Source: a virus. Taken from it: 30,568 nucleotides of DNA. The DNA lies in IMG/VR virus record IMGVR_UViG_3300042907_001243, positions 1 through 30,568 of that record. One strand, 5' to 3'. A program made the translations under genes and the position numbers. Below the pieces are notes generated by a model. The model saw only the letters and a program-made list of their open reading frames with translations. It did not search any database and was not told where the DNA came from. Of the stretch, positions 7,345 through 26,261 are shown piece after piece. The number at the start of each line of letters is the position of its first letter. Positions within the stretch are counted from its first letter, which is position 1.

Positions 7345-8602
7345 TATTAATGCTGATATAGAGATTCCATCGAAGCTATTGCCGTTTATGAGTCCTATGC
7401 GTTACAAGGTCGCTTATGGTGGCAGAGGGAGTGGTAAGAGTTGGACGGTGGCACGTTTACTTATCATTAAAGCAATTGAGAAGCCTACTCGGATATTGTG
7501 TGCTAGAGAGACACAAAACTCAATCCAAGAATCAGTCCATTTTCTGCTCAAGAAACAAATAGAAGATATGGGCTTTGCTGATCTATTCACGATTCAACAG
7601 AACCGGATAATCTGTAAGAACGGAAGTGAGTTTGTCTTTGCTGGTATTCGTCAGCAATCTATCGTTAACCTAAAATCATTTGAATCTTGCTCGATTTGTT
7701 GGGTGGAAGAAGCCCAAGTGGTCACTAGAAAATCATGGGATGCGTTAATCCCGACTATTCGCGCACCAGGCTCAGAGATTTGGATAACATTCAATCCTGA
7801 ATTAGATACGGATGAAACCTACCAGCGTTTTGTTCTTAATCAATCGGATGATTCACTGGTGGTTAAGGTCAATTACTCGGATAACTTGTGGTTTCCTGAA
7901 GAACTGGAAAAAGAGCGCATTAACTGGCTTAAACGAGATCCAGAAGGTTATAAGACCGTTTGGGGTGGAGAATGTCGTCCGGCGGTTGAGGGTGCGATTT
8001 ATGCCCAAGAGATCACCAAGCTATTGCTAGAGAAGCGTAATCATAACGCGCCTTATGATCCGATGCTTAAAGTGCATACGGTCTGGGATTTGGGCTGGAA
8101 TGACTCAATGTCTATTGCAATGGTGCAACGCTCTGGCTCTGGCGAGATTCGTATCATAGATTACATCGAAGATTCGCATAGGACATTAGATAGTTATGTC
8201 GATGAACTGCGAAACAAGTCGTACAACTGGGGAACAGATTACATTCCGCACGATGGTCGAAGCCGTGACTTTAAGTCGGGTAAATCTACTGAGGAAATGC
8301 TACAGGCGTTTGGGCGTTCGGTGTTTGTCTTGGGTCGTGATGATATCGAGGAGGGAATCAAGGTGGCTCGCATGATGTTTGGGCGTGTGTGGTTGGATAG
8401 TAAGGCCAGTATGCTATTGAATCAGCTTAAACGCTACCGAAGGACACAAAACCAATCAACTGGTACATTTGGTGCGCCTCTGCATGATGATAGCTCTCAC
8501 GGGGCTGACTGTTTCCGGTATATCGCAATGGCTGAACAGCACATGAGTAATGATTCTTGGGGTGGTGGTAAGCTTAAATATCCATCACTCAACTACAACT
8601 AA
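7334..8602 (+). CDS. terL: Terminase large subunit
   Basis: This 422-residue packaging motor and nuclease has a Walker A loop, GGRGSGKS (29-36), and a Walker B with catalytic Glu in ICWVEEAQ (121-128). It also has a coupling motif region around GSEIWITFNPE and a C-terminal RNase H-like nuclease domain beginning near VWDLGWNDS (D252), with DGRSRDFKSG and the terminal HGADCFRYIAM carrying further acidic residues. Length is normal for Terminase_3-type proteins. It cuts concatemers and pumps DNA into the prohead through the portal encoded at 9403. Confidence 0.93.
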   Translation: MANNINADIEIPSKLLPFMSPMRYKVAYGGRGSGKSWTVARLLIIKAIEKPTRILCARETQNSIQESVHFLLKKQIEDMGFADLFTIQQNRIICKNGSEFVFAGIRQQSIVNLKSFESCSICWVEEAQVVTRKSWDALIPTIRAPGSEIWITFNPELDTDETYQRFVLNQSDDSLVVKVNYSDNLWFPEELEKERINWLKRDPEGYKTVWGGECRPAVEGAIYAQEITKLLLEKRNHNAPYDPMLKVHTVWDLGWNDSMSIAMVQRSGSGEIRIIDYIEDSHRTLDSYVDELRNKSYNWGTDYIPHDGRSRDFKSGKSTEEMLQAFGRSVFVLGRDDIEEGIKVARMMFGRVWLDSKASMLLNQLKRYRRTQNQSTGTFGAPLHDDSSHGADCFRYIAMAEQHMSNDSWGGGKLKYPSLNYN

Positions 8603-8639
8603 CATTTGTTATGTTATAACATTGCAATTATGGTATAAT
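8603..8639. promoter_or_regulatory. Intergenic palindrome and extended -10 promoter candidate
   Basis: A perfect 12-bp dyad, ATGTTATAACAT (8611-8622), lies in the terL-holin gap. A TGGTATAAT extended -10 follows at 8631-8639, without a good -35. The 21-bp stretch at 8603-8623, read on the minus strand, matches 18604-18624 at 19 of 21 positions. These are two of the few non-overlapping gaps in the late region. Confidence 0.45.
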
Positions 8640-8840: not shown

Positions 8841-8943
8841 GTTGAATTGCACGCCTAATCTTGCTGAAATCAATACATACACGTTTCAATCCAAACCGGA
8901 TGGGGCGTTACTATCCATCAACTGTCGGGAGATAGCTGAATGA
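8758..8943 (+). CDS. Small putative lipoprotein overlapping the holin gene
   Basis: A 61-residue ORF starts at GTG and overlaps the holin-like gene by 83 bp in another frame. The N-terminus is KKRR followed by a hydrophobic run ending in the lipobox LLTSC, so the mature lipoprotein would be about 36 residues with three cysteines. Overlapping small lipoproteins in lysis cassettes are often outer-membrane spanins (Rz1-like), but an inner-membrane partner is not clearly identifiable here. The start is uncertain; an in-frame TTG lies at 8746 and no Shine-Dalgarno is well placed for either. Confidence 0.45.
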   Translation: MSKKRRLLPLAWHYLGLLALLLLTSCTKLNCTPNLAEINTYTFQSKPDGALLSINCREIAE

Positions 8944-9176
8944 AAGTTAAACAGATAGCCATCTCAACATTATCAAAATTAATATTGGGCGGTGACTTGT
9001 GGGAACACGTCAGGCATTTAGTCTCAACGATTGATGCTAATAGCAAACTCACAGGCTCTCAGAAGCACAAGTCCGTAGCGGCTGATCTTAAAGCCATTTT
9101 TTCAGACGTGGGTTCGGCGCTCTTAAATTTAGCAATTGAGTTGGCTCTTTTTTGGATTCGCGGTGTTAGAGCATGA
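8940..9176 (+). CDS. Small phage protein of the lysis cluster
   Basis: A 78-residue protein whose ATG overlaps the lipoprotein stop, with GGGAG 8 nt upstream in a small hairpin loop. The central part LTGSQKHKSVAADLKAIF is polar and helical, and the C-terminal SALLNLAIELALFWIRG is hydrophobic enough to contact the membrane. Similar small proteins occur next to holins in phages, but I cannot name a family with certainty. It overlaps the next gene by 4 bp. Confidence 0.55.
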   Translation: MKVKQIAISTLSKLILGGDLWEHVRHLVSTIDANSKLTGSQKHKSVAADLKAIFSDVGSALLNLAIELALFWIRGVRA

Positions 9177-9403
9177 CCGATCTTGAAGAGATAAAAACCA
9201 TCCTTAGCGATTTAAAAGCCCACCATCTCGCCTTAAATGAAACGCATGAAGCTCATCATGAATGGGTGCAAGAACAAATCGAAAAAGACCGCGCCAAGAA
9301 AGAAATGATGTGGGAGATTGCTAAATCAGTCGCTCAGTGGTCAGTCATCGGGATGCTGGGCGGTTTTATCTACTACATTCAAAACGGTCACTGGAGCGCT
9401 TAA
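9173..9403 (+). CDS. Small protein with C-terminal membrane helix
   Basis: A 76-residue protein with a long charged helical N-terminus (residues 1-45, rich in Glu, Lys and His, likely coiled coil) and one C-terminal transmembrane segment, WSVIGMLGGFIYYIQNG. It starts in an ATGA overlap and ends in a TAATG overlap with the portal gene. The topology fits a lysis accessory protein, possibly antiholin or holin-like. No specific family is recognised. Confidence 0.55.
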   Translation: MTDLEEIKTILSDLKAHHLALNETHEAHHEWVQEQIEKDRAKKEMMWEIAKSVAQWSVIGMLGGFIYYIQNGHWSA

Positions 9404-11460
9404 TGTCTGCAATGACGGATGACAAACTCAAAGCGCTCACCGACCAAGAGATCAAGCAATCACTGGGTTATGGCTCTGGCAAGTTAACCAACGACCGCAC
9501 GAAAGCCCTGCAATACTACTACGCGGAGCCGATCGGTGATCTAGCACCACCATCAATTGACGGACGTTCAGCAGTCGTTGATACGTCAGTTATGGATACG
9601 GTTGAATGGATGCTGCCAAGTCTGCTCAAGATATTTGCAGGCGGTGACAAGGTCGTTGAGTTCGAGGCGAAATCGGAGGGCTTCGAGGAGCAAGAGGATC
9701 ATATTACTGAGTACATCGGTCGGCATGTTTTCTATGTCCAAAATCATGGCTTTCAAATCCTGCATACTTGGTTTAAAGATGCGCTACTCGCTAAGAATGG
9801 CATTATTAAAGTCTGGTGGGATAAAACCCAAGACGAAATGCGTGAGGACTATACCGGCTTAAATGACGTTGAACTGGGTATGCTGCTGGAAGATAAGCAC
9901 GTTGAGCCGATTGAACACTCAGCTAGTCAAGATCCCATGACCGGCGAACAGCTCCATGATATTGCCGTTAAGCGTGTCGTTGATAAAGGCTTTTGCCGGA
10001 TAGAGAACGTACCGCCTGAAGAATTTTTAATCTCTCGTCGTGCCAAGAACTGCGAAGATGCACCTTTTGTCGCTCATCGATTTGAACGGACGATTGGACA
10101 GCTTAAAGAGGCGGGTTACGAGAATGTTGACAATCTAAGTAGTGATGAGAATGATGGGGCATTTGGCTCTGAACGTGTCTCTCGCAAGATGCAGAATGAT
10201 GAATCACCTTATCTGGGAGGTCGTGGATCACAAGAGAATGGCGATCCGTCAAGTCGCGTTGTCTGGGTCACTGAGTGTTATCTCAAGGTTGATTATGATG
10301 GTGACGGTATTCCGGAGTGGCGAAAGGTCGTTCGTGCCGGCAATCAGATTTTAGAGAATATCGAGTGTGATGGTCAGCCTTTTATCTCTTTAACACCGGT
10401 ACCCATCCCGCATCAATTCTTTGGGTTATCAGTCGCTGATCTGGCAATGGAATCACAACGCACAAAGACCAGCTTAATGCGTGCGTTGATAGACAATCTT
10501 TATTTGACCGTTAATGGTCGCACCTGGGCGCTGGAAGGTCAGGTTAATCTTGATGACTTACTGACCTCAAGACCGGGCGGCATTGTCCGGGTTAAATCAC
10601 CCAATGCAGTCGGACCTATGCAGGCGGGTGGTGGTGACTTAACGTCTGCTATGTCTATGCTGGATTATGTCGACATTCAGCGTGGTAACCGTACTGGCTT
10701 TACCAGTGAGACGCAGGGCGGTAACGCTAACGCGATCAATCATACAGCGACCGGCATGAACATCATTACTAATCGTGCTGATATGCGGATTGAATTGATT
10801 GCAAGAAACTTTGCAGAGAATGGCGTTAAGCAACTATTTTTAAAGATTTTAGAGTTAATCTCAAAATATCAAGACAAAGCCGAGCGCATAAAAGCAACAG
10901 GCGGCTGGGTCGATATTGATCCTCGTGAATGGAAGAATCAGTTTCATTTGTCGGTTAACGTGGGTCTGGGTACAGGTAACAAAGATCAGATTATCCAAAA
11001 CCTTAACGCTTTAGGCGCTGCAATGGGTCAAGCGGCTCAAGCTGGGGTTGTTAAGCCTGAGAATGTCTATAAAGCGGGTGTTAAGCTGGCTGAAACGCTA
11101 GGGTTTAGTAATCCTGAACAATACTTTACTGATCCAGCAACGCAGCCCCCACCAGAAGAAAAGCCAGATCCTCAAATTGAGACAGCCAAAGCGATGATGG
11201 AGATTGAGCGCCTAAAAACAGAGGCCAAGATCGCTCAAGATCAACAAAAACTCGAAGCAGACATACAAATGAAGCGTGAGGAATTGGCGGCTAAGTACGG
11301 CCTCATGACCGAGGAAATGAATCACAAAGTTATCATGGGCCAAGCAGGAAATAACAATGGACTCTACGCAAGAGCTATACCGCAGTCAACAAGTGGAGGC
11401 GCTGGTCAACAGCCCGCTATTCCAGGAAGCGTTCAAGCACCTGGACAACCTTTATTTTGA
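9403..11460 (+). CDS. Portal protein
   Basis: This 685-residue protein starts at ATG 9403 in a TAATG overlap; an upstream in-frame start at 9337 lies inside the preceding gene and is unlikely. Residues ~1-60 are the polar lead-in (SLGYGSGKLTNDRTKALQYY). The core contains PPSIDGRSAVVDTSVMDTVE, VWWDKTQDE, PPEEFLISRRAK, and PHQFFGLSVADLAME before the long helices, all typical of podoviral portal proteins. The last ~80 residues are charged coiled coil. It forms the dodecameric vertex ring on which terminase docks and the tail assembles. Order after terminase and before scaffold and capsid supports this. Confidence 0.88.
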   Translation: MSAMTDDKLKALTDQEIKQSLGYGSGKLTNDRTKALQYYYAEPIGDLAPPSIDGRSAVVDTSVMDTVEWMLPSLLKIFAGGDKVVEFEAKSEGFEEQEDHITEYIGRHVFYVQNHGFQILHTWFKDALLAKNGIIKVWWDKTQDEMREDYTGLNDVELGMLLEDKHVEPIEHSASQDPMTGEQLHDIAVKRVVDKGFCRIENVPPEEFLISRRAKNCEDAPFVAHRFERTIGQLKEAGYENVDNLSSDENDGAFGSERVSRKMQNDESPYLGGRGSQENGDPSSRVVWVTECYLKVDYDGDGIPEWRKVVRAGNQILENIECDGQPFISLTPVPIPHQFFGLSVADLAMESQRTKTSLMRALIDNLYLTVNGRTWALEGQVNLDDLLTSRPGGIVRVKSPNAVGPMQAGGGDLTSAMSMLDYVDIQRGNRTGFTSETQGGNANAINHTATGMNIITNRADMRIELIARNFAENGVKQLFLKILELISKYQDKAERIKATGGWVDIDPREWKNQFHLSVNVGLGTGNKDQIIQNLNALGAAMGQAAQAGVVKPENVYKAGVKLAETLGFSNPEQYFTDPATQPPPEEKPDPQIETAKAMMEIERLKTEAKIAQDQQKLEADIQMKREELAAKYGLMTEEMNHKVIMGQAGNNNGLYARAIPQSTSGGAGQQPAIPGSVQAPGQPLF

Positions 11461-11608
11461 TGAATGGCTGAATAATTCAGAATTAACGAGAGAAGAACGA
11501 GAAGAAATATGGCGACAATTAAAATCCATGCAGCACCTGAAACGCTTCTTCCAAACAGTGTTGGAACAAGGGGTGCAAGCAGTAACAGCCCTGAATTTGA
11601 ATCATTGA
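11357..11608 (+). CDS. Small phage protein overlapping the portal gene
   Basis: This 83-residue protein overlaps the portal 3' end by 104 bp. AGGA lies 11 nt before the ATG. The sequence EREEIWRQLKSMQHLKRFFQ followed by TVLEQG is the helical hallmark of a short protein often encoded just after portal genes in podoviruses. The function is unknown, possibly head assembly. A shorter ORF of uncertain status overlaps its 3' end. Confidence 0.6.
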   Translation: MDSTQELYRSQQVEALVNSPLFQEAFKHLDNLYFDEWLNNSELTREEREEIWRQLKSMQHLKRFFQTVLEQGVQAVTALNLNH

Positions 11609-11778
11609 TCGAGTTTTGCAAAGCGGCTGAACTTGATAATGCTGCGCTAAGAATTTTAGAAGTCATAACTGATGATGTGACCTCACCCGAATTTGTCAGA
11701 CTGAAATATTCTTATCCAGCGGTAACGATAGGTGTTCCAGGCTACAAAGATAGCAAAGATAAAGTAGTAAAAATGTAG
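11509..11778 (+). CDS. Uncertain small ORF between portal and scaffold
   Basis: An 89-residue ORF overlaps the preceding gene by 100 bp in another frame but alone covers 11609-11778. The unique part, EFCKAAELDNAALRILEVIT, then PAVTIGVPGYKDSKDK, reads like real protein. A TTG at 11605 overlapping the upstream stop would give a 57-residue version with no large overlap. No family recognised. The product is probably real, but its start is unresolved. Confidence 0.4.
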   Translation: MATIKIHAAPETLLPNSVGTRGASSNSPEFESLIEFCKAAELDNAALRILEVITDDVTSPEFVRLKYSYPAVTIGVPGYKDSKDKVVKM

Positions 11779-11781
11779 GCA

Positions 11782-11819
11782 TGTCGTGAGACACCCTTAA
11801 TCAATGTCGTGATGACATT
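11782..11819 (+). promoter_or_regulatory. Two small hairpins upstream of scaffold gene
   Basis: TGTC-GTGA-GACA (11782-11793) is a 4-bp stem with a GNRA tetraloop. AATGTC-GTGAT-GACATT (803-819 of this kilobase, i.e. 11803-11819) is a 6-bp stem. Both lie between the previous stop and the scaffold start. Related hairpins precede other head genes and the DGR target gene. Confidence 0.5.
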
Positions 11820-11841
11820 ACAATCCCAAGCAGGAAATATT

Positions 11842-12780
11842 ATGGAACAAGAAGCTACCCAGCTAGATCAGGGCGCAGAAATACAACAAGATTCTGGTAA
11901 TACCGGAAGCGATGATGCCTCGTTGTTGTCGGCATTTTTGGCGCAAGAAAATGATTCAAGTAACGGTATAGAAGCCGCATCCAGTGACATACCTGCCACT
12001 CAAGATGACGCTCCTAGTCAGTCAGTTGATAATTTTACCGTCAAAATCAATGGAGAAGAAAAGCAAGTTACTCGTGACGAGTTGATCGCTAACTATCAAA
12101 AAGGCGAGGCCTCAAGCCAAAAGTTTGAAGAAGCCGCAAATTTACGACGTGAAGTAGAGCAACAAAAAGCCGCGACTAATCAGCAACATTCGATATTGCA
12201 AAACGCTATCAATCATTTCAGGCAGACAGCGAATCAGTGGGCGCAAGAAGGGCAACCGGATTGGGCAAACCTACTGGAAAACAATCCGCATGAATATTTG
12301 AGGCAAAAAGAAGTATTCGCAGCAAGACAAGAGGAATTTGGGAAAGCACAGGCTGCTCAGGCATACCTGGACCAACAAAATCAGTCTCAGCAAAACGAAT
12401 ACATGGCGCAACATTTAGCGTCTGAGAGCGCAAAACTGCTGGATATTATTCCAGAATGGAAAGACATAGGTCATCGTGAACGTGAGGAGCAAGAGTTAGT
12501 TAAGTATTTAACTGGCAAGGGCTATACACGCGATGAAATGGCTAACCTTAATCAATCCAAAGCTTCCAACATATCACTTGTCTTAAATGCTATGCGATAT
12601 GAAAAGCTAGTGGCGCAATCAAAGACAGCGGCTAAACAAGTGCAAAACCTACCACCACGCATTGAGCGTGCTGGGGTAACTAATCAGGGTAGTTCAGGAC
12701 GCGCAGAAGCTATGCAGCGACTCTCTAGGTCTGGTTCAATTTCTGATGCAACTGACGCGTTTGCGGCTTTGTTCGGATAA
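11842..12780 (+). CDS. Scaffolding protein
   Basis: This 312-residue protein is acidic and Gln/Glu/Ala-rich with long coiled-coil stretches. It lies directly between portal and major capsid genes, the position of phage scaffolds. The N-terminal ~75 residues are disordered and Asp/Ser-rich; VDNFTVKINGEEKQVTRDEL (~67-86) is a short globular motif seen in podoviral scaffolds; a Gln-rich coiled region follows, and the C-terminus is basic and helical (SGRAEAMQRLSRSGSISDAT), fitting capsid-protein binding. ATG 11842, with AGGA about 8 nt upstream, is preferred over GTG 11809 or ATG 11812, which fall inside a hairpin. Confidence 0.8.
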   Translation: MEQEATQLDQGAEIQQDSGNTGSDDASLLSAFLAQENDSSNGIEAASSDIPATQDDAPSQSVDNFTVKINGEEKQVTRDELIANYQKGEASSQKFEEAANLRREVEQQKAATNQQHSILQNAINHFRQTANQWAQEGQPDWANLLENNPHEYLRQKEVFAARQEEFGKAQAAQAYLDQQNQSQQNEYMAQHLASESAKLLDIIPEWKDIGHREREEQELVKYLTGKGYTRDEMANLNQSKASNISLVLNAMRYEKLVAQSKTAAKQVQNLPPRIERAGVTNQGSSGRAEAMQRLSRSGSISDATDAFAALFG

Positions 12781-12783
12781 TCA

Positions 12784-12795
12784 TGTCGAAAGACA
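12784..12795 (+). promoter_or_regulatory. GNRA-loop hairpin upstream of capsid gene
   Basis: TGTC-GAAA-GACA is a 4-bp stem closing a GAAA tetraloop in the 38-bp gap before the major capsid gene. The Shine-Dalgarno GCAGG lies further downstream, so the loop here does not itself carry the ribosome site, unlike at 13842 and 24427. Confidence 0.5.
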
Positions 12796-12818
12796 CAACT
12801 AATTTAGCAGGTATATAA

Positions 12819-13802
12819 ATGGCAATAGTAACAGGAACCTATCAAACGTTCCAAACCAAGGGTATTAAAGAAGATTTGGCAGATATCATCTACCGAATCA
12901 CCCCAACCAAGACTCCTTTTCTTTCAGCAATTCCGAAAGTAAAAGCTTCCAATACTTTTCACGAATGGCAAACTCAAGACTTGGCGGCTGTTACTGCCAA
13001 TGCTCAAATTGAAGGGGATGATGTATCAACCTTTGGTGCGGTCACGCCTACCGTTCGTTTAGGTAACTACACACAGATCTCTACTAAAAACGTGGTTATC
13101 TCTGGCACTAACCAAGCGGTTAAGTCCGCTGGTCGTAACAATGAAATGTCTTATCAGTTAAGCCTTAAATCGGCTGAGTTGAAGCGCGACATGGAAGCGG
13201 CTTTGTGTTCATCAGCTAATGGTGTTGCGGGTGCAGTTTCTAACGCTGGTAACTCCGCTGCTCATGCTGGCTCTACTTCTGCGGCTCGTCAGCTAAGAGG
13301 CTTGGAAGGTTGGATCGCTACTAACGTCGATTTAGGCGCTACCGGTGTAGCTCCTGTTTACACAATGGGATCTTGGGCAGCTCCAAGTGACGGTACTGCT
13401 AGAGCTTTTACTGAAACTCAGTTAAAGAACGCATTGCAGCTTGCTTATGCTCAAGGTGGCGAACCTGATTTAATCATGGTTGGTCCTGGTCAAAAACAAA
13501 CTTTCTCAACTTTCACAGGCGGTTCAACCCGTTTTGATAAAGCTGAAGATAAGTCTGTCACAGCGGCTGTTGATGTTTATATCTCAGACTTTGGTACGCT
13601 TCAAGTGGTTCCTAATAGGTTCCAGCGCACAAGAACAGCGTTTATCTTGGAAACTGAAAAATGGGCATTGGCTACACTAAGAAGTTTTGACACTGTTGAC
13701 CTAGCAAAAACTGGTGACGCAGAGAAAAAGCTGATTACGGTTGAATACACGCTTGAATCTCGTCAAGAGAAAGCGTCTGCTGCTGTAAAAGACTTGTTGT
13801 AG
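12819..13802 (+). CDS. Major capsid protein, SU10/BPP-1 type
   Basis: This 327-residue protein has the length of the BPP-1/SU10 (DUF5309-like) capsid family. Characteristic parts are the start MAIVTGTYQTFQTKGIKEDL, ITPTKTPFLSAIPK (~27-40), the FHEWQTQDLA stretch, NYTQISTKNVVISGTNQAVK (~85-104), and the C-terminal TLESRQEKASAAVKDLL. It is an HK97-fold subunit, which in BPP-1 has a permuted topology. It follows the scaffold gene and precedes a probable decoration protein. Confidence 0.88.
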   Translation: MAIVTGTYQTFQTKGIKEDLADIIYRITPTKTPFLSAIPKVKASNTFHEWQTQDLAAVTANAQIEGDDVSTFGAVTPTVRLGNYTQISTKNVVISGTNQAVKSAGRNNEMSYQLSLKSAELKRDMEAALCSSANGVAGAVSNAGNSAAHAGSTSAARQLRGLEGWIATNVDLGATGVAPVYTMGSWAAPSDGTARAFTETQLKNALQLAYAQGGEPDLIMVGPGQKQTFSTFTGGSTRFDKAEDKSVTAAVDVYISDFGTLQVVPNRFQRTRTAFILETEKWALATLRSFDTVDLAKTGDAEKKLITVEYTLESRQEKASAAVKDLL

Positions 13803-13810
13803 ACTTAACC

Positions 13811-13835
13811 TGAGTGGGTGTAAAAAGCCCACTCA
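13811..13835 (+). other. Strong intergenic stem-loop after the capsid gene
   Basis: TGAGTGGG (13811-13818) pairs perfectly with CCCACTCA (13828-13835) across a 9-nt A-rich loop. No T-run follows (ACCTACTG), so it is not a standard rho-independent terminator. Protection of the abundant capsid message from 3' decay, or partial termination, is a reasonable guess. Confidence 0.6.
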
Positions 13836-13841
13836 ACCTAC

Positions 13842-13853
13842 TGTCGGGAGACA
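13842..13853 (+). promoter_or_regulatory. GNRA-loop hairpin containing the ribosome-binding site
   Basis: TGTC-GGGA-GACA closes a GNRA-type tetraloop, and the GGGAG in the loop and stem is the Shine-Dalgarno sequence for the ATG at 13858 (7-nt spacing). Folding of this small stem could therefore modulate translation of the downstream gene. Confidence 0.5.
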
Positions 13854-13857
13854 CTAG

Positions 13858-14157
13858 ATGATTGATGATGCCATCCAAATTCAAGCAGTCGGAGTCAGCC
13901 TAACCACAGGCGCTGCTTCTGTTAATGCGACTATCCCTAATACGGCTAGTGCAACCAAACCTAATTATATTCGTATCTGTGTCACTGCCAACTGTTTCGT
14001 GAAGATCGGCGCTGCTGGTGTAGTCGCAACGGGTAACGATATATTAATGAATCCAGCCGATTGCCTGATTTTAAAGGTATCGGGAAATACCACGATTGCT
14101 GCGATTCAACAAGCTGCTGGCGGTATTTGTAACATCACCGCACTGGAAGATTTGTAA
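13858..14157 (+). CDS. Putative head decoration (cement) protein
   Basis: This 99-residue protein is predicted to be all beta, with repeated alternating segments (IQIQAVGVSLTTGAASVNAT, YIRICVTANCFVKIG, CLILKVSGNTTIAAIQ). Its position directly after the capsid gene is where BPP-1-like podoviruses encode a small capsid-stabilising protein. No family hallmark is certain, so the role rests on position and fold impression. The start has a well-placed GGGAG. Confidence 0.5.
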   Translation: MIDDAIQIQAVGVSLTTGAASVNATIPNTASATKPNYIRICVTANCFVKIGAAGVVATGNDILMNPADCLILKVSGNTTIAAIQQAAGGICNITALEDL

Positions 14158-14441
14158 TGGAGATGCAGACCAGCTTAAGTGTGCATGATGACTTGATGGT
14201 CGTTAAGTCCATGCAAGACGTTGAGCCAATACTGATGGCCTGCAAGGAAAAGGTAGAAGTAGGCGATGTTGGCACGAAAGACATGAAACATGCAGCCACT
14301 ATACCGATGGTAATTATCGAGGCCTACATGAACCGTGTTGGCTTGACGTTTCAAGAGTTCCTTCGAGACAAAGAGCATATTAAATCAATGCTCAATGATA
14401 AATCACTAGAGGGCTTTCGTGTCTGGAAAGGGGCGGTATAA
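14157..14441 (+). CDS. Small conserved head-module protein
   Basis: This 94-residue helical protein contains PMVIIEAYMNRVGLTFQEFL and ends in DKSLEGFRVWKGAV. This pattern, a short helix pair followed by a terminal FRVWxG segment, is seen in small proteins placed between capsid and adaptor genes of T7-like and BPP-1-like phages. It starts in a TAATG overlap and abuts the adaptor gene. Function not established. Confidence 0.55.
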   Translation: MEMQTSLSVHDDLMVVKSMQDVEPILMACKEKVEVGDVGTKDMKHAATIPMVIIEAYMNRVGLTFQEFLRDKEHIKSMLNDKSLEGFRVWKGAV

Positions 14442-15050
14442 ATGTCGATTGCTAACTATTCAGATTTAAGCGCGTCAATCGCCGCATGGATGCACCGGAG
14501 CGATTTAACGGCTGTTATTCCTGATTTTATTCGGCTTGCAGAAGCCAGGATGCAATTAGATTTAGATACCAGGCAACTCGATAAAACCAGCCCCCTAACC
14601 ACAACTCCAAGCACTAATACGCTGGCATTACCCACTGATTTTAATAAGGCATATTCCTTGTCAATGATTTCAGGCGGCTTGACAATTGTGCTAGACAATA
14701 TGCCGATAGAGCTACTGGTACAGCGCTGGGGTAGTTATACCTCATCCATGCCGCGTAGCTATGCAATCAGCGGCAGCAATCTGTTATTAGGCCCAACACC
14801 CAACGGGGCTTATGACTTAACGCTGGAATATTTGGGCGCGATACCTAGCTTAACCGCAATCAATCCAACCAACGATATTTTAACCAACTATCCAGACGCT
14901 TACCTCCATTGCTGCCTGATTTATGGCGCTCAGTACATCAGAGATGCTGAACTGGTGGCTGGTATGGAAAGCTTGTACGCAATGGATGTAGATCGAATTA
15001 ACATGCAGAACTGGGGACAGTCTGCCACCATGACGATGAAACAGGGGTAA
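14442..15050 (+). CDS. Head-to-tail adaptor protein
   Basis: This 202-residue protein has the features of podoviral adaptors: an N-terminal helix pair (YSDLSASIAAWMHRSDLTAV, PDFIRLAEARMQLDL), the LALPTDF segment (residues ~65-71), then beta strands and a C-terminal PDAYLHCCLIYGAQYIRD helix. It should bind the portal ring and connect it to tail proteins. The next gene begins three bases after its stop. Confidence 0.7.
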   Translation: MSIANYSDLSASIAAWMHRSDLTAVIPDFIRLAEARMQLDLDTRQLDKTSPLTTTPSTNTLALPTDFNKAYSLSMISGGLTIVLDNMPIELLVQRWGSYTSSMPRSYAISGSNLLLGPTPNGAYDLTLEYLGAIPSLTAINPTNDILTNYPDAYLHCCLIYGAQYIRDAELVAGMESLYAMDVDRINMQNWGQSATMTMKQG

Positions 15051-15053
15051 GCA

Positions 15054-16781: not shown

Positions 16782-16783
16782 TT

Positions 16784-18331
16784 ATGCTGAAAGTTCAGAG
16801 TGTCGGGCAAATAGGTTTAAACAAAGACTTATCACAGCATGAACTGCCGGTAAATGCGTGGACTGATTGTCGAAACATCCGCTTTTTAGACGGCTATGCT
16901 TATCAGTTTATCGGGCATGGTGAGGTGTACAATTCACCCACTTTTATTCCACAGCACGTCATGCCGTGTAATGCTGGAGGCTCTCGTTATTGGGTGTATG
17001 CCACAGCAACCAAGCAATTTGCAGCGACTAATACGGGCGGTGTGTCAGTACATACAGACATAACGCATTTAACGCCTCGTGCAGGCATTAGCAATAACTG
17101 GACAAGTACACTATTGTCCGGTGTGCCTATTCTCAATGCTGGTGATACGTCTAGTGTGCCGATGGCTTGGAGCTTGAATCTAGCCAACAAATTTGTTGAT
17201 TTAACCAACTGGCCTGCTGCAACTTACTGTAAATCAATCCGCAGCTTTAAAAACTACCTGATTGCGTTAAATATTACCAAAGGTGCGGCTAATTATCCCT
17301 ACATGGTGAAATGGTCACACCCAGCCGATCCAGGCTCACTGCCGTCAAGCTGGAACGAAGCCGACGCAACCAAACAAGCGGGTGAGTCTGACTTAGCGGA
17401 AGGGTATGACGCGATCATTGACGGCCTACAGCTTCGTGATTCGTTCATGATCTATAAAGAATCTAGCGTATGGCGTATGGATTTTATTGGCGGGAATTAC
17501 ATCTTTAAATTCAGTAAGGTGCTGGGTAAGTCGGGCGCAATGAATCGAAACTGTATCGCTGATATAGACGGTTATCATGTCGTATTAACTAATAATGACA
17601 TTATCATTCACGATGGCAATCAAGCAGATTCAGTGTTAGATAAGGCGACAAGGCGGTGGTTTTTTCAAAATATCGACACTGATAATTACAGTAAATGTTT
17701 TCTGTTTGTTAATCCGTTTTTCAATGAAGTTTATATCTGTTACCCGCAAATTGGATCTTCTGTTTGTGATAAAGCGATGGTGTATAACTACAAAGATAAG
17801 ACCGTTTCATCACGCGATATGCCAAATATCAACCATGCTAATTATGGCCCGGTTGATAATGGTCTTGCCGGTCTTTGGTCTCAAGATGGCGACACATGGG
17901 GTAGTGACTTAACGCTATGGAACGGGCCTGATTTTGTGCCTAGCGCTTCACATTGCATCATGGCGAGTAATGACACCAAACTGTATTTACTAGATGGTAG
18001 CGCGTCATTTAACGGGGTTATTGCTAATGCGTTTCTTGAGCGTCGAGGCTTGTCGTTTGATTCGCCAGAGTCTATTAAGCTCATAAAAGGGGTTAGACCG
18101 CGCGTGAGTGGAAGCACTGGGCAATCCATCCAAATACAGATAGGTAGTTCCGACGATCCATTTACGGAACCAACGTGGGGCCTACCAATGACGCACATTA
18201 TTGGCTCAACAATAGCTAATGATTGTTTGGTATCAGGACGCTATATTGCTATACGGTTCTCAACGGGGTCTGCTTATCAGTGGAGACTGGACAGCTACGA
18301 TATTGACATTGACATAACTGGGAGCTGGTAA
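16784..18331 (+). CDS. Large tail protein, probable beta-propeller nozzle
   Basis: A 515-residue protein rich in aromatic and beta-type segments with repeated patterns of Trp and Gly (SRYWVYATATKQFAATNT, DGLQLRDSFMIYKESSVWRM, GYHVVLTNNDIIIHDGNQ). This resembles the propeller-type tail nozzle/tubular protein of short-tailed phages. It follows the adaptor and fibre and overlaps the next gene by one base. The assignment is by fold impression and position, not by a signature motif. Confidence 0.55.
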   Translation: MLKVQSVGQIGLNKDLSQHELPVNAWTDCRNIRFLDGYAYQFIGHGEVYNSPTFIPQHVMPCNAGGSRYWVYATATKQFAATNTGGVSVHTDITHLTPRAGISNNWTSTLLSGVPILNAGDTSSVPMAWSLNLANKFVDLTNWPAATYCKSIRSFKNYLIALNITKGAANYPYMVKWSHPADPGSLPSSWNEADATKQAGESDLAEGYDAIIDGLQLRDSFMIYKESSVWRMDFIGGNYIFKFSKVLGKSGAMNRNCIADIDGYHVVLTNNDIIIHDGNQADSVLDKATRRWFFQNIDTDNYSKCFLFVNPFFNEVYICYPQIGSSVCDKAMVYNYKDKTVSSRDMPNINHANYGPVDNGLAGLWSQDGDTWGSDLTLWNGPDFVPSASHCIMASNDTKLYLLDGSASFNGVIANAFLERRGLSFDSPESIKLIKGVRPRVSGSTGQSIQIQIGSSDDPFTEPTWGLPMTHIIGSTIANDCLVSGRYIAIRFSTGSAYQWRLDSYDIDIDITGSW

Positions 18332-18600
18332 TGCAAGCACTCAATAGCAATTCGGTATTCTACGCCCCTGCACCGATACCCACCGATAGCCAGTATCTAG
18401 CGCAATACATCGTTAACGAATTAGGCGCTATACAGGCAGCGATTAATGCGCTTGCCGCCGGTCATATTGATAAATCCTATGCTGTCCCTACCAAGCCAAG
18501 AGAGGGTGATATTCGTTATGCGGATGGGTCAACCTGGAACCCAGGAAGCGGCGCAGGAATCTATTACTACAATGGCAGTATTTGGAAGCTGTTAGGCTGA
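18331..18600 (+). CDS. Small tail-associated protein
   Basis: An 89-residue protein. The first half is helical (YLAQYIVNELGAIQAAINAL). The second half, VPTKPREGDIRYADGSTWNP then GAGIYYYNGSIWKLLG, is a short beta unit with the YADG and YNG-WK pattern common at the ends of small phage tail proteins. The ATG overlaps the upstream stop by one base. Exact role unknown. Confidence 0.55.
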   Translation: MQALNSNSVFYAPAPIPTDSQYLAQYIVNELGAIQAAINALAAGHIDKSYAVPTKPREGDIRYADGSTWNPGSGAGIYYYNGSIWKLLG

Positions 18601-18603
18601 TGA

Positions 18604-18624
18604 AATGTTATAATGTAACAAATG
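18604..18624 (+). promoter_or_regulatory. Extended -10 promoter candidate and shared 21-bp motif
   Basis: TGTTATAAT (18606-18614) is an extended -10 without a clear -35 in a 34-bp gap. The 21-bp stretch matches the minus strand of 8603-8623 at 19 of 21 positions. It ends at the GGAGGT (18624-18629) used by the GTG at 18635. It could start transcription of the distal late genes. Confidence 0.4.
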
Positions 18625-18634
18625 GAGGTGTTTA

Positions 18635-19084
18635 GTGGCTATTGAATATGAAAATATGGCAGTACACGAAGTAACCGACGATCTTGAGTTATATCAAGTT
18701 TGGCCTAACGTCCGCGACGGTATCAATGCCATGCGTGCTAAATGTCCTCACATGCTCGACTATCCAGAGCATATCTGGCACGAAATTAAACTACGTCAGT
18801 CAAAGCTTTTGGTTGCAGAAATAGATGGCGTGTATGCCGGTTTCTTTACCGTTAAGACCGTAGACTGTGCTGACGGGTACGGATTGCTGATCTCACTTAT
18901 TCATAACGCTAGTACAGATAAAGATTATCTGCTTAAGTTTTTCAAGATCATTGAGGAACTGGTACGGCTTACAGGCTACCGGCGTGCAACCTTTGCGATC
19001 ACTCGCAAGGGCTGGCTACCGGCACTAAAAAAACTCGGCTATGACTCAGACAATAGCGTCACCTATCAAACTATAGAGGCTTAA
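18635..19084 (+). CDS. GNAT-like virion-module protein
   Basis: This 149-residue protein starts at GTG with GGAGGT 5 nt upstream. It shows an N-acetyltransferase-like order: a helix, a central strand KLLVAEIDGVYAGFFTVKTV (~54-73), then YRRATFAITRKGWLPALKKLGY as the last strand-helix of the fold. A canonical acetyl-CoA loop (Q/RxxGxG/A) is not obvious. Similar GNAT-like genes lie among internal virion protein genes of podoviruses; a structural or modifying role is open. Confidence 0.55.
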   Translation: MAIEYENMAVHEVTDDLELYQVWPNVRDGINAMRAKCPHMLDYPEHIWHEIKLRQSKLLVAEIDGVYAGFFTVKTVDCADGYGLLISLIHNASTDKDYLLKFFKIIEELVRLTGYRRATFAITRKGWLPALKKLGYDSDNSVTYQTIEA

Positions 19085-20455
19085 ATGGGAACTCCATCTA
19101 CACCATCATCAACCACAACAAATTCAACCAATACACCTTGGTCGGGGGCAGCGCAATACTTAACGGGTGGTGGCACATCTGGTAATGGGGTTTATGGCGA
19201 TGTAGCCGACTACGCCAAAAAATACAGCAGCTTAACGCCGCAGCAAACTAAATTAGTAGCAGGACAGCAAACCACTCTAAATGGACGACCTGCCATTGCT
19301 AATAGCCTATACAAAGGCTCTACTGATTTAGGCAATAGTATTTTAAAAGGCAATTACAACACTAATTATGGGCCGGTCGCTAATTCGGTAGCAGGGCAGG
19401 CGACTAATGGACAAGCGGTAGCCGGTCAAGCGACTAATGGTCAAGCGGTAGCAGGGCAGGCGACTAATGGACAGGCTACAGCAGGATATAGTGATTTACA
19501 GCGGGGTATGGCTAATTTTGGCGGTAATGATCCTCGCGATGCGATATCAAGAGCGCTGTCGGGTGATGTGAATAATGATGTCGTCGGCTCAATGAATCAA
19601 GCCAATATCAATCGCTCAATGCAGGGCTATAACGATGCAATGATCAATATGGGGCAGACGGTTTTGCCATCCATTAATAATGATTCATTTGCGTCGGGTC
19701 AGTATGGCGGCAGTCGTCAAGGTGTCGCGCAAGGTCTAGCGATACAGGGCGCTGAACGTAATGCAAGAGATTTGGGTATTGCGGCAATGGATAGTGGCAA
19801 TCTGCTCTATGGTAATGCTTACAATGCGGCACAAGACAGGTCATCATCAACCGCCAATAACTTGGCTGGATTAGCATCTGATAATGAACAATTTAATGCA
19901 GGCCAAACCACGCAAAATAATCAATACAATAACAGCCTTGATGCGGATACAAGTCGTTTTAACGCAGAACAAACAACACAAAACAATCAATATAATAATA
20001 CGCTTGATGCTAACACCAGTCAGTTTAACGCGGGCCAAACGACTCAGAACAATCAATACAACAACACTTTAGATGCTAATACCAGTCAGTTTAATGCCGG
20101 TCAAACTACGCAAAATAACCAGTTTAACGCTGACTTAGGCATACAAAACAACACACAGGGCATGGCACAGAACGCGCAAAACCTTGGCAATATGACCACT
20201 GGCAATGAAATAAAAACCAATGCGGCTACTGATCTTTTTAATAATCAGGATGCTACTTATGCTAAAAAACAGAACTTAGCCAACACGCCACAGCAACAAG
20301 CTCTGGACATGCTGAATCTAAGGCTTAACTCAGTTTCGCCTGGTGCAGCGATGGGCGGCAGTTCATCACAAACTGATCCGCTATATAGCAATACCTTTGG
20401 TCAGGCAGCCGGGCTTGCTTCGTCGGTAGGTGGCTTGGTTAAAGCGTTTAAATGA
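19085..20455 (+). CDS. Gln/Asn-rich repetitive internal virion or tail protein
   Basis: This 456-residue low-complexity protein contains two repeat arrays. AVAGQATNGQ recurs three times (~102-131). A 22-residue unit, core FNAGQTTQNNQYNNTLDA, recurs about 3.5 times (~269-346). The rest is Asn/Gln/Ala-rich helix with an NNDSFASGQYGGSRQG turn. Such proteins in this position of podoviruses are usually structural, often tail or ejected internal proteins. No enzymatic domain is visible. The ATG abuts the upstream stop. Confidence 0.55.
   Translation: MGTPSTPSSTTTNSTNTPWSGAAQYLTGGGTSGNGVYGDVADYAKKYSSLTPQQTKLVAGQQTTLNGRPAIANSLYKGSTDLGNSILKGNYNTNYGPVANSVAGQATNGQAVAGQATNGQAVAGQATNGQATAGYSDLQRGMANFGGNDPRDAISRALSGDVNNDVVGSMNQANINRSMQGYNDAMINMGQTVLPSINNDSFASGQYGGSRQGVAQGLAIQGAERNARDLGIAAMDSGNLLYGNAYNAAQDRSSSTANNLAGLASDNEQFNAGQTTQNNQYNNSLDADTSRFNAEQTTQNNQYNNTLDANTSQFNAGQTTQNNQYNNTLDANTSQFNAGQTTQNNQFNADLGIQNNTQGMAQNAQNLGNMTTGNEIKTNAATDLFNNQDATYAKKQNLANTPQQQALDMLNLRLNSVSPGAAMGGSSSQTDPLYSNTFGQAAGLASSVGGLVKAFK
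19387..19477 (+). repeat. Tandem 30-bp repeats
   Basis: Three near-identical in-frame 30-bp units begin with GTAGC(A/C)GG and encode VAGQATNGQA. Differences are mostly synonymous third-position changes, which indicates duplication followed by drift under protein-level constraint. Confidence 0.75.
19888..20122 (+). repeat. Tandem 66-bp repeats
   Basis: About 3.5 in-frame units of 66 bp encode FNAGQTTQNNQYNNTLDANTSQ-like blocks. Units differ mainly at silent positions. Copy-number change without frameshift is expected at such a locus. Confidence 0.75.
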
Positions 20456-20871
20456 GTTCGTTGGCGCTGGCTGGCAACATGCCTGAGATATTAGCCTTAG
20501 AAAAAGTGTTACTGACACTGGAGCAGGTTGAGTGTCCGGTCAGTCATTACCACATCGATGGCGTGTATGTACGCTCGATGTTTATACCGGCCGGTACAGT
20601 CTTAACAGGTGCTATCCACAACAAAGAAAACGTGTCGATCTTGGCACAAGGCACGATTCGAGTCACAAACGGCACTGAGTCAAAAGTGATAACAGCACCT
20701 TATGTGATGGTCGATCAGTCGGGTATTAAACGGCTTGGTGTTGCAGAAACGGATGTCACTTTTATTAATGTATGGCGTACTGATTTAACCGATATTGACG
20801 AGCTTGAAAAAGAGCTACGCTCTGAGTCGTTTGACGACTACGAACTTAAACTATTAACAGGAATAAATTAA
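20452..20871 (+). CDS. Cupin-like phage protein
   Basis: A 139-residue protein whose central part has the strand pattern of a small beta barrel: VYVRSMFIPAGTVLTGAIHN (H at the first metal-motif-like site), VSILAQGTIRVTNGTESKVI, APYVMVDQSGIKRLGVAETD. Cupin-like proteins of this length are encoded near virion genes in several podoviruses. The normal full set of metal-binding histidines is not present, so enzymatic function is doubtful. It overlaps the previous gene by 4 bp and the next by 1 bp. Confidence 0.55.
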   Translation: MSSLALAGNMPEILALEKVLLTLEQVECPVSHYHIDGVYVRSMFIPAGTVLTGAIHNKENVSILAQGTIRVTNGTESKVITAPYVMVDQSGIKRLGVAETDVTFINVWRTDLTDIDELEKELRSESFDDYELKLLTGIN

Positions 20872-21563
20872 TGTCACTTATAGCATCAGCAGCAGCAATC
20901 GGCTCAAGCGTTTTATCGACAGCACTTGGAGCAGGGATAGTGGGGGGTGTGGGTACGGGGGCGCTAGGCTTATCAGCAGGCGCTATTGGTGCGGCAGGCT
21001 CTGCAATCGGTGGAGGTATAGCAGGTGGCGCAGTAGGCGCAGGCTTAGGCGCGATTACCTCGGCAGCTCAAGGCGGTGATGTTGGAAAAGGCGCATTAAT
21101 GGGCGGTGTAACAGGCTTGGCTGGTGGCGGCATAGCAGGTGGATTAAGTGGTGCAGCAGGCGCAGGTGCGGGGGGTGTCGGAGGCACAACAGCCGGTAAC
21201 AGCGGTGGATTATTAAATAGTGGCGTCAGTAATGCAGCCCCAGCTGCTAATATGTCAACCATACCTGGTGGTGCTGTCATGCCTGCAAATACCGTTAATG
21301 CCGCAATATCTGGTGTTCCGTCAACAGTAACACCGATGGCTTCCGCAGTCGTACCAGCAGCGCCGTCAATCGGTGGTGGTCTGGCGATGCCGACATTAGA
21401 TCAAATTGGTACAGGGCTACAAGTCGCAGGAACAGCAGGCGATATGACAAAACCTAATCAAGCACCCGTCGCGCCACGCCCACAAGTAGCACCAAGACCG
21501 ACCAATCAAATACCTTATCAAAAACCAATCATACGCGGCATGGGTCGCTTTGGGGGCATGTAA
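20871..21563 (+). CDS. Gly/Ala-rich membrane-active internal protein
   Basis: This 230-residue protein has residues 1-110 nearly all Gly, Ala, Ile, Leu and Ser, with glycine-zipper-like GxxxG patterns, then a Pro/Ala/Val-rich tail (APVAPRPQVAPRPTNQIP). Composition fits a DNA-ejection protein able to insert in the host membrane, and the neighbours are similarly ejection-like. No motif-level assignment is possible. Confidence 0.5.
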   Translation: MSLIASAAAIGSSVLSTALGAGIVGGVGTGALGLSAGAIGAAGSAIGGGIAGGAVGAGLGAITSAAQGGDVGKGALMGGVTGLAGGGIAGGLSGAAGAGAGGVGGTTAGNSGGLLNSGVSNAAPAANMSTIPGGAVMPANTVNAAISGVPSTVTPMASAVVPAAPSIGGGLAMPTLDQIGTGLQVAGTAGDMTKPNQAPVAPRPQVAPRPTNQIPYQKPIIRGMGRFGGM

Positions 21564-22819
21564 TGGCTGGATTACTCGATTATCTATCGAATCTTAAATA
21601 TGAACCTGATGCAACATCAATGGGGCTGATGAACATGGGCGCTCAGATGATGGCTAACAGTGGCCCGTCAAGGTTGCCTACTAATTTCTTGCAGCAACTG
21701 GGCGGTGGTGTACAAGGCTTTAATCAAGGCTATACCGCTCAGAATAATGAGGAGCAAGCACTCGCACTAGCAGAACAAAAGAAGCTGACGGATGCGGCCG
21801 CAATCAATAAAGATAATGCGATAGCTGGGTACTACACAGCAGGTGGGGCAGGCAGTGATGGCTATCATCAACCTATACAGACAGCGCAGGGCTGGGCTAA
21901 ATGGGATCCAGTTACAAATGATTATAAATTAATTGAATTGCCTGGTGGTGTCGCCTTGCCGGTAACTGCGGATGTTGGCTTAAAAGGGCGAATGTCGGCC
22001 GTAGGTCATGCGTGGGATCCACAGCAAACAACAGACTCACAAGGTCATCCAATGGTTAGGCCTACTTTTGAAATGAATGGTGCTTATCCTAATCCTAACC
22101 AAGACATGCAGCTACCTCAATTCAACGGCAATGAGCAGCAACTGATTGACCAATTAAATAATAATGCAGCACCTGCAAATAATATTATCAATAATCAAAA
22201 CGGCAATCCACAACAACCATTGGTAAATAATACTTATCAGCCGCAACAACAACAATATACTGGATTACCACAATCGCCCGCTGAAAGAGCGCAATCGTTA
22301 GTACCAGCAGCCGTTGCCCAAGCAGGCCAATCAGAGGCGGCAAAAATAGCGGCAGAAGCGCAAGCTAAAGCACAACTTGAATTACCTAATAATATAGCGC
22401 AAGCACAGAATCTTAGTGATTTGACCAATCAAATGCTTAATCATCCTGGCCTTGCTGGTGTTGTTGGCATGCCTAATTTTCAGGGTGCTATTCCGTTCCC
22501 TGGCACAAATGAGGCTGACTTTAAGGCGCTGCTTGAGCAGGTAAAAGGAAAGGCATTTTTACAAGCATTTGACTCTTTAAAAGGTGGCGGTGCTATTTCA
22601 GAAGCTGAGGGCATAAAAGCATCTCAAGCCCTAGCAAGACTCCAAACTTCCCAAACCGAAGGCTCTTTTAAAAATAGTCTGCAAGAGTTTAATAATATTG
22701 TTTCTAATTCTGCGAATAGAATGAAACAAAGGGCGGGAGGAAATAATCAACTAAATACCCAACCACAAAGCCAACCATCTATTGATGATCTTGTTAATCA
22801 TTATGGTGGGGGCAAGTAA
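21563..22819 (+). CDS. Putative internal virion/ejection protein
   Basis: A 418-residue protein. The N-terminus resembles short-tailed phage internal proteins (LLDYLSNLKYEPDATSMGLM, then a GVQGFNQGYTAQNNEEQALAL helix). A WAKWDPVTNDYKLIELPGGV region follows, then an Asn/Gln-rich linker and a C-terminal helical domain (AKAQLELPNNIAQAQNLSDL and AFLQAFDSLKGGGAISEAEG). The latter resembles an internal-protein segment common in these phages. It abuts its neighbours by 1-bp overlaps. The precise role is inferred from the block of internal proteins. Confidence 0.55.
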   Translation: MAGLLDYLSNLKYEPDATSMGLMNMGAQMMANSGPSRLPTNFLQQLGGGVQGFNQGYTAQNNEEQALALAEQKKLTDAAAINKDNAIAGYYTAGGAGSDGYHQPIQTAQGWAKWDPVTNDYKLIELPGGVALPVTADVGLKGRMSAVGHAWDPQQTTDSQGHPMVRPTFEMNGAYPNPNQDMQLPQFNGNEQQLIDQLNNNAAPANNIINNQNGNPQQPLVNNTYQPQQQQYTGLPQSPAERAQSLVPAAVAQAGQSEAAKIAAEAQAKAQLELPNNIAQAQNLSDLTNQMLNHPGLAGVVGMPNFQGAIPFPGTNEADFKALLEQVKGKAFLQAFDSLKGGGAISEAEGIKASQALARLQTSQTEGSFKNSLQEFNNIVSNSANRMKQRAGGNNQLNTQPQSQPSIDDLVNHYGGGK

Positions 22820-24417
22820 TGGCAACTAGAGAGCAGATTGCCGCAGCGCTACAAAATGCCCATAATGCAGGTGATACTGAGTCTGCTGCACAATTGGCGC
22901 AAGCTTATAAAGCTATGCAGCAGGAAGCACCTGAGCCGACCATAGAAAGTCATCCGTTTTCTGATACTGTCAGAGGGTTTGCTAATCGTGGTAATCAAGC
23001 GATGACCGCTTTAAATCCATTCGCTACACAAGAAGATATTGATAAGAGAGCGCAGGAACAAGAGTGGGTTAATAAAAGACCTTGGGCGCAAGGTGGGCAG
23101 ATTGGCGCTGATATGATGATGACAGCCCCTGTAGGTGGTTTAGTTTCAGCCCCTGCCAGAGCCGTTGGATCAGGTGTTATTGAAGCGATGACCACGCCAG
23201 GTAATACCGACAAAAGAGCGGATGCCTTTAATTATGGCACGATAGGCGCTGGCATTGGTGAGGGTGTTGGAAAGACTGCGGAATTTCTAATCAATCCTTT
23301 CAAAAAAGTAGCCAGTCCCATTAAAGACAAGCTTATTCAGCAAGCTGAGCAGTTAGGCATTAAGCTAAATGCAGCTCAAGTAACCGGCAATAAGTCTCTA
23401 AAAACTATGGACACAGCTTTAGATTATATTCCCTCATCATCGGTTATGCAGCAAGAAGCAAAAGATGCTCAGCGCACAGCATGGAAAAAAGCCTTATTTA
23501 ATCAAGGTGGAGAAAATGCAGACAATGCTTCAGCAATGGGTGATATGAAAAGACGCATATCAGGTGACTATAACGATGTTGCAAGTCGCAATAATATCAC
23601 TGTTGATCAGCAGCTAAAAGATACGCTTGATGCGATTGGGAGTTCTAGAAACATGAATTTAATGGATGTTAATAAGCGCCCTATTGTTTCTCAATACTTA
23701 CAAGATTTTAATCAAGGGCTAGTCGGCAGCACATTTAGTGGGCAAGGTTATCAAAATACCCGATCAATGCTTGATAAGCAGTATAAATCACTAAAAAACT
23801 CTAATCCAGCAGAAGCAGAGGCTTTAAATGGTATTAGATCAGCAATAGACTCTGCAATGGGCAGGAGCGTATCGCCAGAAGATGCTGCGAAATGGAGCAA
23901 GGCTAATAATGATTGGTCTGTTATGAAATCAATTGAGAGAGGCGTTGATCCCACGACCGGAGAAGTTAGCGCTAATCTATTATTGAACGGATTAAAACAA
24001 CGTAACCCGGATAGTGTTATTTATGGTAACGGCCCACAAGAGTTAAATAATATCGCTAAGGTTGGAAAAGAGTTTATTGCTCCACCAGATACAAGTTCGC
24101 CAACTGCTCAAAGAACAGCAATGATTAAGATGCTGACAAGCGTTCCAGCAGCAGGTGCTTTAGGTGGCGGTACAGGTTTAGCTTATACCAATGATCCTGT
24201 TGGCGCTCTTGGTGGTGCCGGTGCATCTATGCTTGGAGCCGTATTAGTACCCAAACTAGCAGCAAAATTAATGCAGAAAGACGGAGGCTATCTGTCAAAA
24301 GGATTGATAGACCTATCAAAAGAAACTTTACCAGGAGTGTCGAGAAAAGGGCTTTTAGAGTTTCTAACACGACAAACAGGACTCCAGGCTGGTAATGAAT
24401 CAAGATTAACTAATTAA
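22819..24417 (+). CDS. Putative internal virion/ejection protein, large
   Basis: A 532-residue protein. The N-terminal ~45 residues form a charged helical module (REQIAAALQNAHNAGDTESA), followed by an Ala/Gly-rich stretch at ~95-150 with membrane-like segments. A large helical middle follows (LIQQAEQLGIKLNAAQVTGN and NKSLKTMDTALDYIPSSSVM), and a hydrophobic Gly/Ala-rich region near the end. It resembles ejection proteins that precede receptor-binding genes in BPP-1-like phages. No catalytic site was recognised. Confidence 0.5.
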   Translation: MATREQIAAALQNAHNAGDTESAAQLAQAYKAMQQEAPEPTIESHPFSDTVRGFANRGNQAMTALNPFATQEDIDKRAQEQEWVNKRPWAQGGQIGADMMMTAPVGGLVSAPARAVGSGVIEAMTTPGNTDKRADAFNYGTIGAGIGEGVGKTAEFLINPFKKVASPIKDKLIQQAEQLGIKLNAAQVTGNKSLKTMDTALDYIPSSSVMQQEAKDAQRTAWKKALFNQGGENADNASAMGDMKRRISGDYNDVASRNNITVDQQLKDTLDAIGSSRNMNLMDVNKRPIVSQYLQDFNQGLVGSTFSGQGYQNTRSMLDKQYKSLKNSNPAEAEALNGIRSAIDSAMGRSVSPEDAAKWSKANNDWSVMKSIERGVDPTTGEVSANLLLNGLKQRNPDSVIYGNGPQELNNIAKVGKEFIAPPDTSSPTAQRTAMIKMLTSVPAAGALGGGTGLAYTNDPVGALGGAGASMLGAVLVPKLAAKLMQKDGGYLSKGLIDLSKETLPGVSRKGLLEFLTRQTGLQAGNESRLTN

Positions 24418-24426
24418 CAACTAACT

Positions 24427-24438
24427 TGCCGGGAGGCA
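24427..24438 (+). promoter_or_regulatory. GNRA-loop hairpin containing the ribosome-binding site of the DGR target
   Basis: TGCC-GGGA-GGCA forms a GC-rich 4-bp stem with a GNRA-type loop. The GGGAGG in it is the Shine-Dalgarno sequence for ATG 24441. It is the same design as at 13842 but with compensating base changes in the stem (TGTC/GACA versus TGCC/GGCA), which supports pairing. Confidence 0.5.
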
Positions 24439-25852: not shown

Positions 25853-25858
25853 ATAGCG

Positions 25859-26260: not shown

Positions 26261-26261
26261 T

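Follow-up and report, generated by a model that had tools for sequence, protein, structure and literature searches.

Short hairpins with GNRA tetraloops recur on one strand of a phage genome next to the starts of late genes, and the question raised by this locus is whether they form a genuine RNA element and, if so, what the element does. The genome is an IMG/VR phage record of 30,568 bases, referred to below as the window (the whole stretch of DNA that was analyzed). It encodes a terminase, a portal protein, a scaffold protein, a major capsid protein, an integrase and a lambdoid NinB/YbcO/DUF1064 group; given the integrase and the lambdoid group, the phage is probably temperate. The motif, as defined from homologues and pattern scans, is YGYY-GNRA-RRCR and comes in two placements. 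In class I (n = 58 across all loci), a GGGA loop lies 2-8 nt 5' of the start codon, and the Shine-Dalgarno sequence GGAG spans the loop and the 3' arm; the purity of this loop is not independent evidence because the class is defined by it and many of the loci were found with a GGGA pattern. Class II comprises 36 hairpins (all loci) located 11-59 nt from the start, with loops that are mostly GTGA or GAGA, and also GAAA. These hairpins often begin within a few nucleotides of the preceding stop codon, and most are separated from the start by a distinct Shine-Dalgarno-like word. An exception to this scheme, in locus L227, is TGCC-GTGA-GGCA, only 3 nt before the start. The hairpins of the window and the adjacent head genes are the following.

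8923..8934, + strand: class I hairpin TGTC-GGGA-GATA, a near match with one G-U pair
11782..11793, + strand: class II hairpin TGTC-GTGA-GACA, an exact match, its place kept in relatives
11803..11819, + strand: class II-like hairpin AATGTC-GTGAT-GACATT, with a pentaloop; homologues have a tetraloop
11842..12780, + strand: scaffold gene (phrog_3927), with ATG 11842 as the most likely real start
12784..12795, + strand: class II hairpin TGTC-GAAA-GACA, an exact match; relatives have a double change
12819..13802, + strand: major capsid gene (phrog_1328)
13842..13853, + strand: class I hairpin TGTC-GGGA-GACA, Shine-Dalgarno in the loop, start ATG 13858
24427..24438, + strand: class I hairpin TGCC-GGGA-GGCA, with GGAGG across loop and 3' arm as the Shine-Dalgarno sequence

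The initial annotation of this DNA described four exact TGYC-GNRA-GRCA hairpins, located between genes, and both observations hold. Exact matches to TGYCGNRAGRCA number four (11782, 12784, 13842 and 24427), all on the + strand and all intergenic, with none on the - strand, compared to a mean of 0.08 in dinucleotide shuffles of the window, none of which reached four (0/100). The hairpin at 24427 falls inside a mechanically called open reading frame with a TTG start at 24426; the real start there is ATG 24441. The near match at 8923 is as described, with its Shine-Dalgarno GGAG across the loop and 3' arm followed by ATG 8940 of a 78-aa gene, and the placement of a Shine-Dalgarno sequence in the loop, proposed for three hairpins, is true of those at 8923, 13842 and 24427. 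The purported longer cousin at 11803 is a hairpin as well but closes on a pentaloop rather than on a GNRA tetraloop. Among the class II hairpins, that at 11782 starts 3 nt past the stop codon of the gene at 11509-11778 and precedes the scaffold gene, and that at 12784 starts 3 nt past the scaffold stop codon, 5' of a separate Shine-Dalgarno sequence, AGCAGG, and the capsid gene start at 12819. The stems are short (4-6 bp), and the energies of the bare hairpins range from -1.0 (8923) to -5.0 kcal/mol (24427). The hairpins at 11782 and 11803 share TGTCGTGA, and an alternative fold pairing the two is predicted (-11.5 kcal/mol); this mutual pairing is probably a coincidence because the second hairpin differs in relatives.

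Conservation was traced among the 80 loci returned by a major capsid query. The expectation that relatives retain the hairpins is borne out in L005-L011 (95-99% capsid identity), where they are kept in the homologous gaps, but not in seven of the nearest relatives (L013-L018 and L020, 84-85% capsid identity), which lack hairpins and have plain Shine-Dalgarno sequences instead. L019, which begins inside the capsid gene, keeps the hairpin 3' of that gene; L012 (87% identity) has one exact and two altered hairpins; and the more distant L022 (59%) carries two, CGCC-GAGA-GGCG 5' of the capsid gene and CGTT-GAGA-AACG 5' of the gene that follows. Many homologues use a plain Shine-Dalgarno sequence or an overlapping stop/start in place of the hairpin. 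A small gene similar to that at 8940 is preceded, in L159, by a perfect CTGTC-GGGA-GACAG.

The compensatory changes originally cited were differences among distinct sites of one genome; double changes at orthologous sites do occur in the relatives. The hairpin at the 11782 place is retained in L005-L011 with a GTGA or GGGA loop and becomes TCGCC-GTGA-GGCGA in L012; at the 11803 place, homologues have AACGCT-GTGA/GAGA-AGCGTT, so that in L006, a close relative with AACGCT...AGCGTT, the whole stem of this second scaffold hairpin is replaced relative to AATGTC...GACATT of the window. In L009 and L011 (TGCC-GAGA-GGCA), the capsid-site hairpin changes on both sides from U-A to C-G in the pair adjoining the closing pair; the remaining stem positions are invariant, and 18 of 500 shuffles score as high. 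L012 has GCGTC-GAGAT-GACGC at the same site. Further orthologous double changes are found at the portal site and at one site in a Pseudomonas prophage. Compensatory changes at orthologous sites, the criterion for a structured RNA, are therefore present at the capsid, portal, prophage and scaffold sites, with few sequences behind each. Loops are swapped as well, GGGA being replaced by GTGA or GAGA at related sites (the scaffold site in L005 and L009; also L087 and L120).

The hairpins are strand-specific and concentrated near starts. Tetraloop hairpins on the coding strand before starts (stem >=5, <=45 nt from the start) have a GNRA loop in 36/80 cases, compared to 2/80 for the opposite strand and 117/1785 within coding regions, in loci that come mainly from protein homology but include 14 stretches of carrier records, some of them picked for the motif. 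With these 14 stretches excluded, the core GYY-GNRA-RRC is found in 34 of the 41 GNRA hairpins near starts compared to 34 of 274 in coding regions; the gene calls come from a simple script and many loci are fragments. The third stem pair is G-C in 37 of the 41 hairpins near starts, with pyrimidines on the 5' side and purines on the 3' side.

The element is present, patchily, in several unrelated phage groups, including prophages of Pseudomonas and methanotrophs. A first collection scan, for TGTCGGGAGACA followed by ATG, is a search in which hundreds of chance matches are expected; among the matches listed, many loci had several hairpins on the same strand, and a fifth pair that the query left unspecified was formed in 26/37 'clean' matches versus 27/73 others. 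In three of seven rechecked genomes, the TGTCGGGAGACA repeats cluster on one contig. A stricter pattern produced 49 intact matches in the viral collection versus 4 with a broken stem (one control pattern) and 27 genome matches, some of them in prophage-like loci from Pseudomonas, Stutzerimonas and methanotrophs. The locus in a P. brenneri prophage has no DNA similarity to known phages. No core hairpin was found near starts in the isolate relatives LUZ24, Venkman, BroderSalsa, MW202481, vB_Pun_Y3, Pmp11, PAE2, P26218, MW202691 and MW202573 or in the phages BPP-1, lambda, F116 and P22, nor at any of 726 starts in 760 kb of sampled host chromosome (Methylobacter marinus and a Pseudomonas). Carrier-phage loci have 48 core hairpins at 401 starts versus 2 on the opposite strand, a count in which close relatives enter separately and some loci were chosen for the motif. 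The suggestion that the element is phage-wide does not fit these data: about a tenth of the starts in carrier phages bear the hairpin.

Association with virion genes proved to be part of a broader pattern. The downstream genes match PHROG families of portal, major head, tail and DNA-ejection proteins, but also of the terminase small subunit; small membrane or lysis-type genes are likewise preceded by the hairpin, and several downstream genes are of unknown function. With this correction, that the element is not virion-only, good support for a phage RNA element that recurs where late genes start comes from the strand and gap enrichment, the double changes, the occurrence in unrelated phages and the absence from the host starts sampled. 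Rfam gave no matches in the window and none at E up to 1 in L126, L120 and L123 in a permissive scan, and an open-access literature search retrieved no description of this hairpin family.

Of translation, message processing and protein binding, the three roles put forward for the hairpins, translation is the best supported. In their natural context, class I stems are predicted to form with a median of 0.85, and their GGA is predicted to be unpaired with a median of 0.91, against 0.45 for the Shine-Dalgarno sequences that these phages have at other starts, a comparison of GGA with whole Shine-Dalgarno words across loci that are not all independent. This predicted accessibility favors a hairpin whose role is to display the ribosome site or to shield it. 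In the predicted ensemble for 13842, GGA is unpaired at 0.99 and the stem formed at 0.98; by contrast, the 24427 stem is weak in its local context (probability 0.04), and of 28 class I contexts, 5 are predicted to have GGA mostly paired, including that of window start 24441. In class I, the final G of GGAG is paired (median unpaired 0.02), and the hairpin may therefore hinder as well as help.

We put at about even the chance that these are a tailed-phage family of self-folding mRNA hairpins, YGYY-GNRA-RRCR, placed so that the ribosome can find late-gene starts. Under this model, the Shine-Dalgarno sequence of class I would be built into the hairpin, with GGA in the GNRA loop, the next G closing the stem and the start codon 2-8 nt on, such that the ribosome-binding bases would be kept from longer-range pairing; in class II, a hairpin just 5' of an ordinary Shine-Dalgarno sequence would insulate the ribosome site from the upstream message. 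The effect on translation, and a single role for both classes, are what we infer from predicted folding and placement.

Structure alone does not account for a third pair that is almost always G-C or for the bias to pyrimidines on one side of the stem and purines on the other, and this is where the main competitor of the translation model comes in. The hairpins might be binding sites for a phage or host RNA-binding protein that times or sets late-gene translation, that is, an operator regulon. This is a serious possibility, if clearly the less probable one, because the stem sequence is constrained beyond what pairing requires, in class II too, where the Shine-Dalgarno sequence makes no such demand; moreover, one hairpin is repeated before the portal, scaffold and further late genes of a single genome. 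No common candidate gene speaks for such a protein, however: none common to the hairpin-positive relatives alone could be singled out, the replication modules being too divergent, and a CsrA-family gene occurs in only some of the phages. Furthermore, unrelated phages sharing the motif would need a host reader, yet the sampled host starts lack it. The strongest named alternative, in which host or phage CsrA/RsmA binds the loop GGA and represses translation, has only a slim chance of being correct. CsrA recognizes targets of this type, with GGA displayed in a hairpin loop (PMC7366521), and a CsrA-family protein is encoded in 3 of 13 carrier records:

G023:C1:42742-42906: CsrA-family gene
G027:C1:41132-41326: CsrA-family gene
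G049:C1:14927-15121: CsrA-family gene

Nevertheless, the tetraloops follow GNRA and not NGGA (GGGA 31, AGGA 3, CGGA 0, TGGA 0), the replacement of GGGA at related sites loses the GGA, and the gene is absent from the window, G005, G035 and G037, all of which are fragments; the loop spectrum and loop swaps led us to reject CsrA as the general reader. The CsrA/RsmA hairpins resemble class I in displaying GGA in a short loop over the Shine-Dalgarno sequence but use ANGGA loops with a variable N (PMC7366521), whereas the loop here, among the tetraloops counted, is GNRA, and class II has no GGA. It is improbable, albeit somewhat less so than CsrA, that the role of the hairpins is to mark or protect the ends of messages, as 5' stabilizers or as nuclease processing sites between late genes: class II hairpins often follow closely behind a stop codon and stand 5' of capsid genes, for which high expression is expected, but the position of the Shine-Dalgarno sequence in class I is tuned to translation, and the stems are merely 4-6 bp at -1.0 to -5 kcal/mol. 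DNA-level palindromes (operator or cruciform) or intrinsic terminators, suggested by inverted repeats in intergenic gaps, are already disfavored and very unlikely, given that the loop is strand-specific (36/80 vs 2/80) and its identity interlocks with the Shine-Dalgarno sequence, and that no T run lies 3' of the hairpins. Chance matches around Shine-Dalgarno sequences can be practically dismissed for the family: GGGAG is a common Shine-Dalgarno sequence and the first scan would yield hundreds of matches by chance, so single matches are uncertain, but the shuffles, the excess of intact over stem-broken matches, the fifth pair, the double changes and class II, which has no Shine-Dalgarno sequence in the loop, all refute it.

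Among known systems, lambdoid boxB, to which some class II stems look similar, has a short stem and a GNRA-type loop, but this is a pentaloop found in early operons beside boxA. Hairpins near ribosome-binding sites in phage messages include the T4 gene 43 operator and those of T4 lysis genes (PMC3014915). Like the present hairpins, they are short and lie where translation of a phage gene is initiated, but they are gene-specific and repressive, in contrast to a single sequence-constrained GNRA hairpin before many late genes of unrelated phages. The sites of T4 RegB are GGAG sequences whose GGA is unpaired and whose fourth G is constrained (PMC3014915), a geometry matched by class I, whereas class II has no GGAG; PF10715 (RegB) has no match in the 13 carrier records and none in control genomes either, a search with no positive control. 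The window also contains a complete diversity-generating retroelement (25716-27553), which targets the tail gene whose ATG 24441 follows the 24427 hairpin:

25716-25830: variable repeat, in the tail gene 24441-25841
25859-26260: Avd gene (phrog_3206)
26262-26376: template repeat, 115 nt, 88%
26513-27553: reverse transcriptase

In such elements, the variable repeat is followed downstream by a hairpin with a GRNA tetraloop (PMC4372165), likewise a short inverted repeat with a GNRA-like loop. We rejected this identity: the hairpins, at 8923-24438, are not just downstream of the variable repeat but 5' of gene starts, up to ~17 kb from it, and similar GNRA hairpins are found in many other loci.

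A bolder reading, that unrelated gammaproteobacterial phages share a previously undescribed late-start RNA code, YGYY-GNRA-RRCR, read by a single component of the host, either an RNA-binding protein or an element of the ribosome, is in our estimate unlikely; if true, a shared host reader would let phage messages compete for ribosomes. Under the translation model, the hairpins would be a portable, recurring translation element common to phages with different capsid and portal types; they would make late genes and phage gene starts easier to call in metagenomes, and they might reveal by what means a temperate phage adjusts the ratios of its virion proteins without additional promoters.

Several minor observations remain. 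As a possible lead for the host-reader idea, the class II form TGTCGTGAGA matches a host 16S rRNA segment over 10 nt (e.g., G068:C1:2213777), which may be a coincidence; we take this segment to be helix 36, near protein S2. Two of the three CsrA-bearing carrier records are close relatives of Pseudomonas/Stutzerimonas prophages, and the CsrA-like gene of F116 has no homologue among the loci compared. The window has two other inverted repeats: TAACAT-TTGTT-ATGTTA at the terminase stop codon (8600-8616), which is not GNRA, and GAGTGGG...CCCACTC just 3' of the capsid gene (13812-13834), which is kept in relatives without GNRA hairpins and occupies the position of a stem-loop annotated after the P22 coat gene, in an annotation that states its presence in HK97 and lambda as well.
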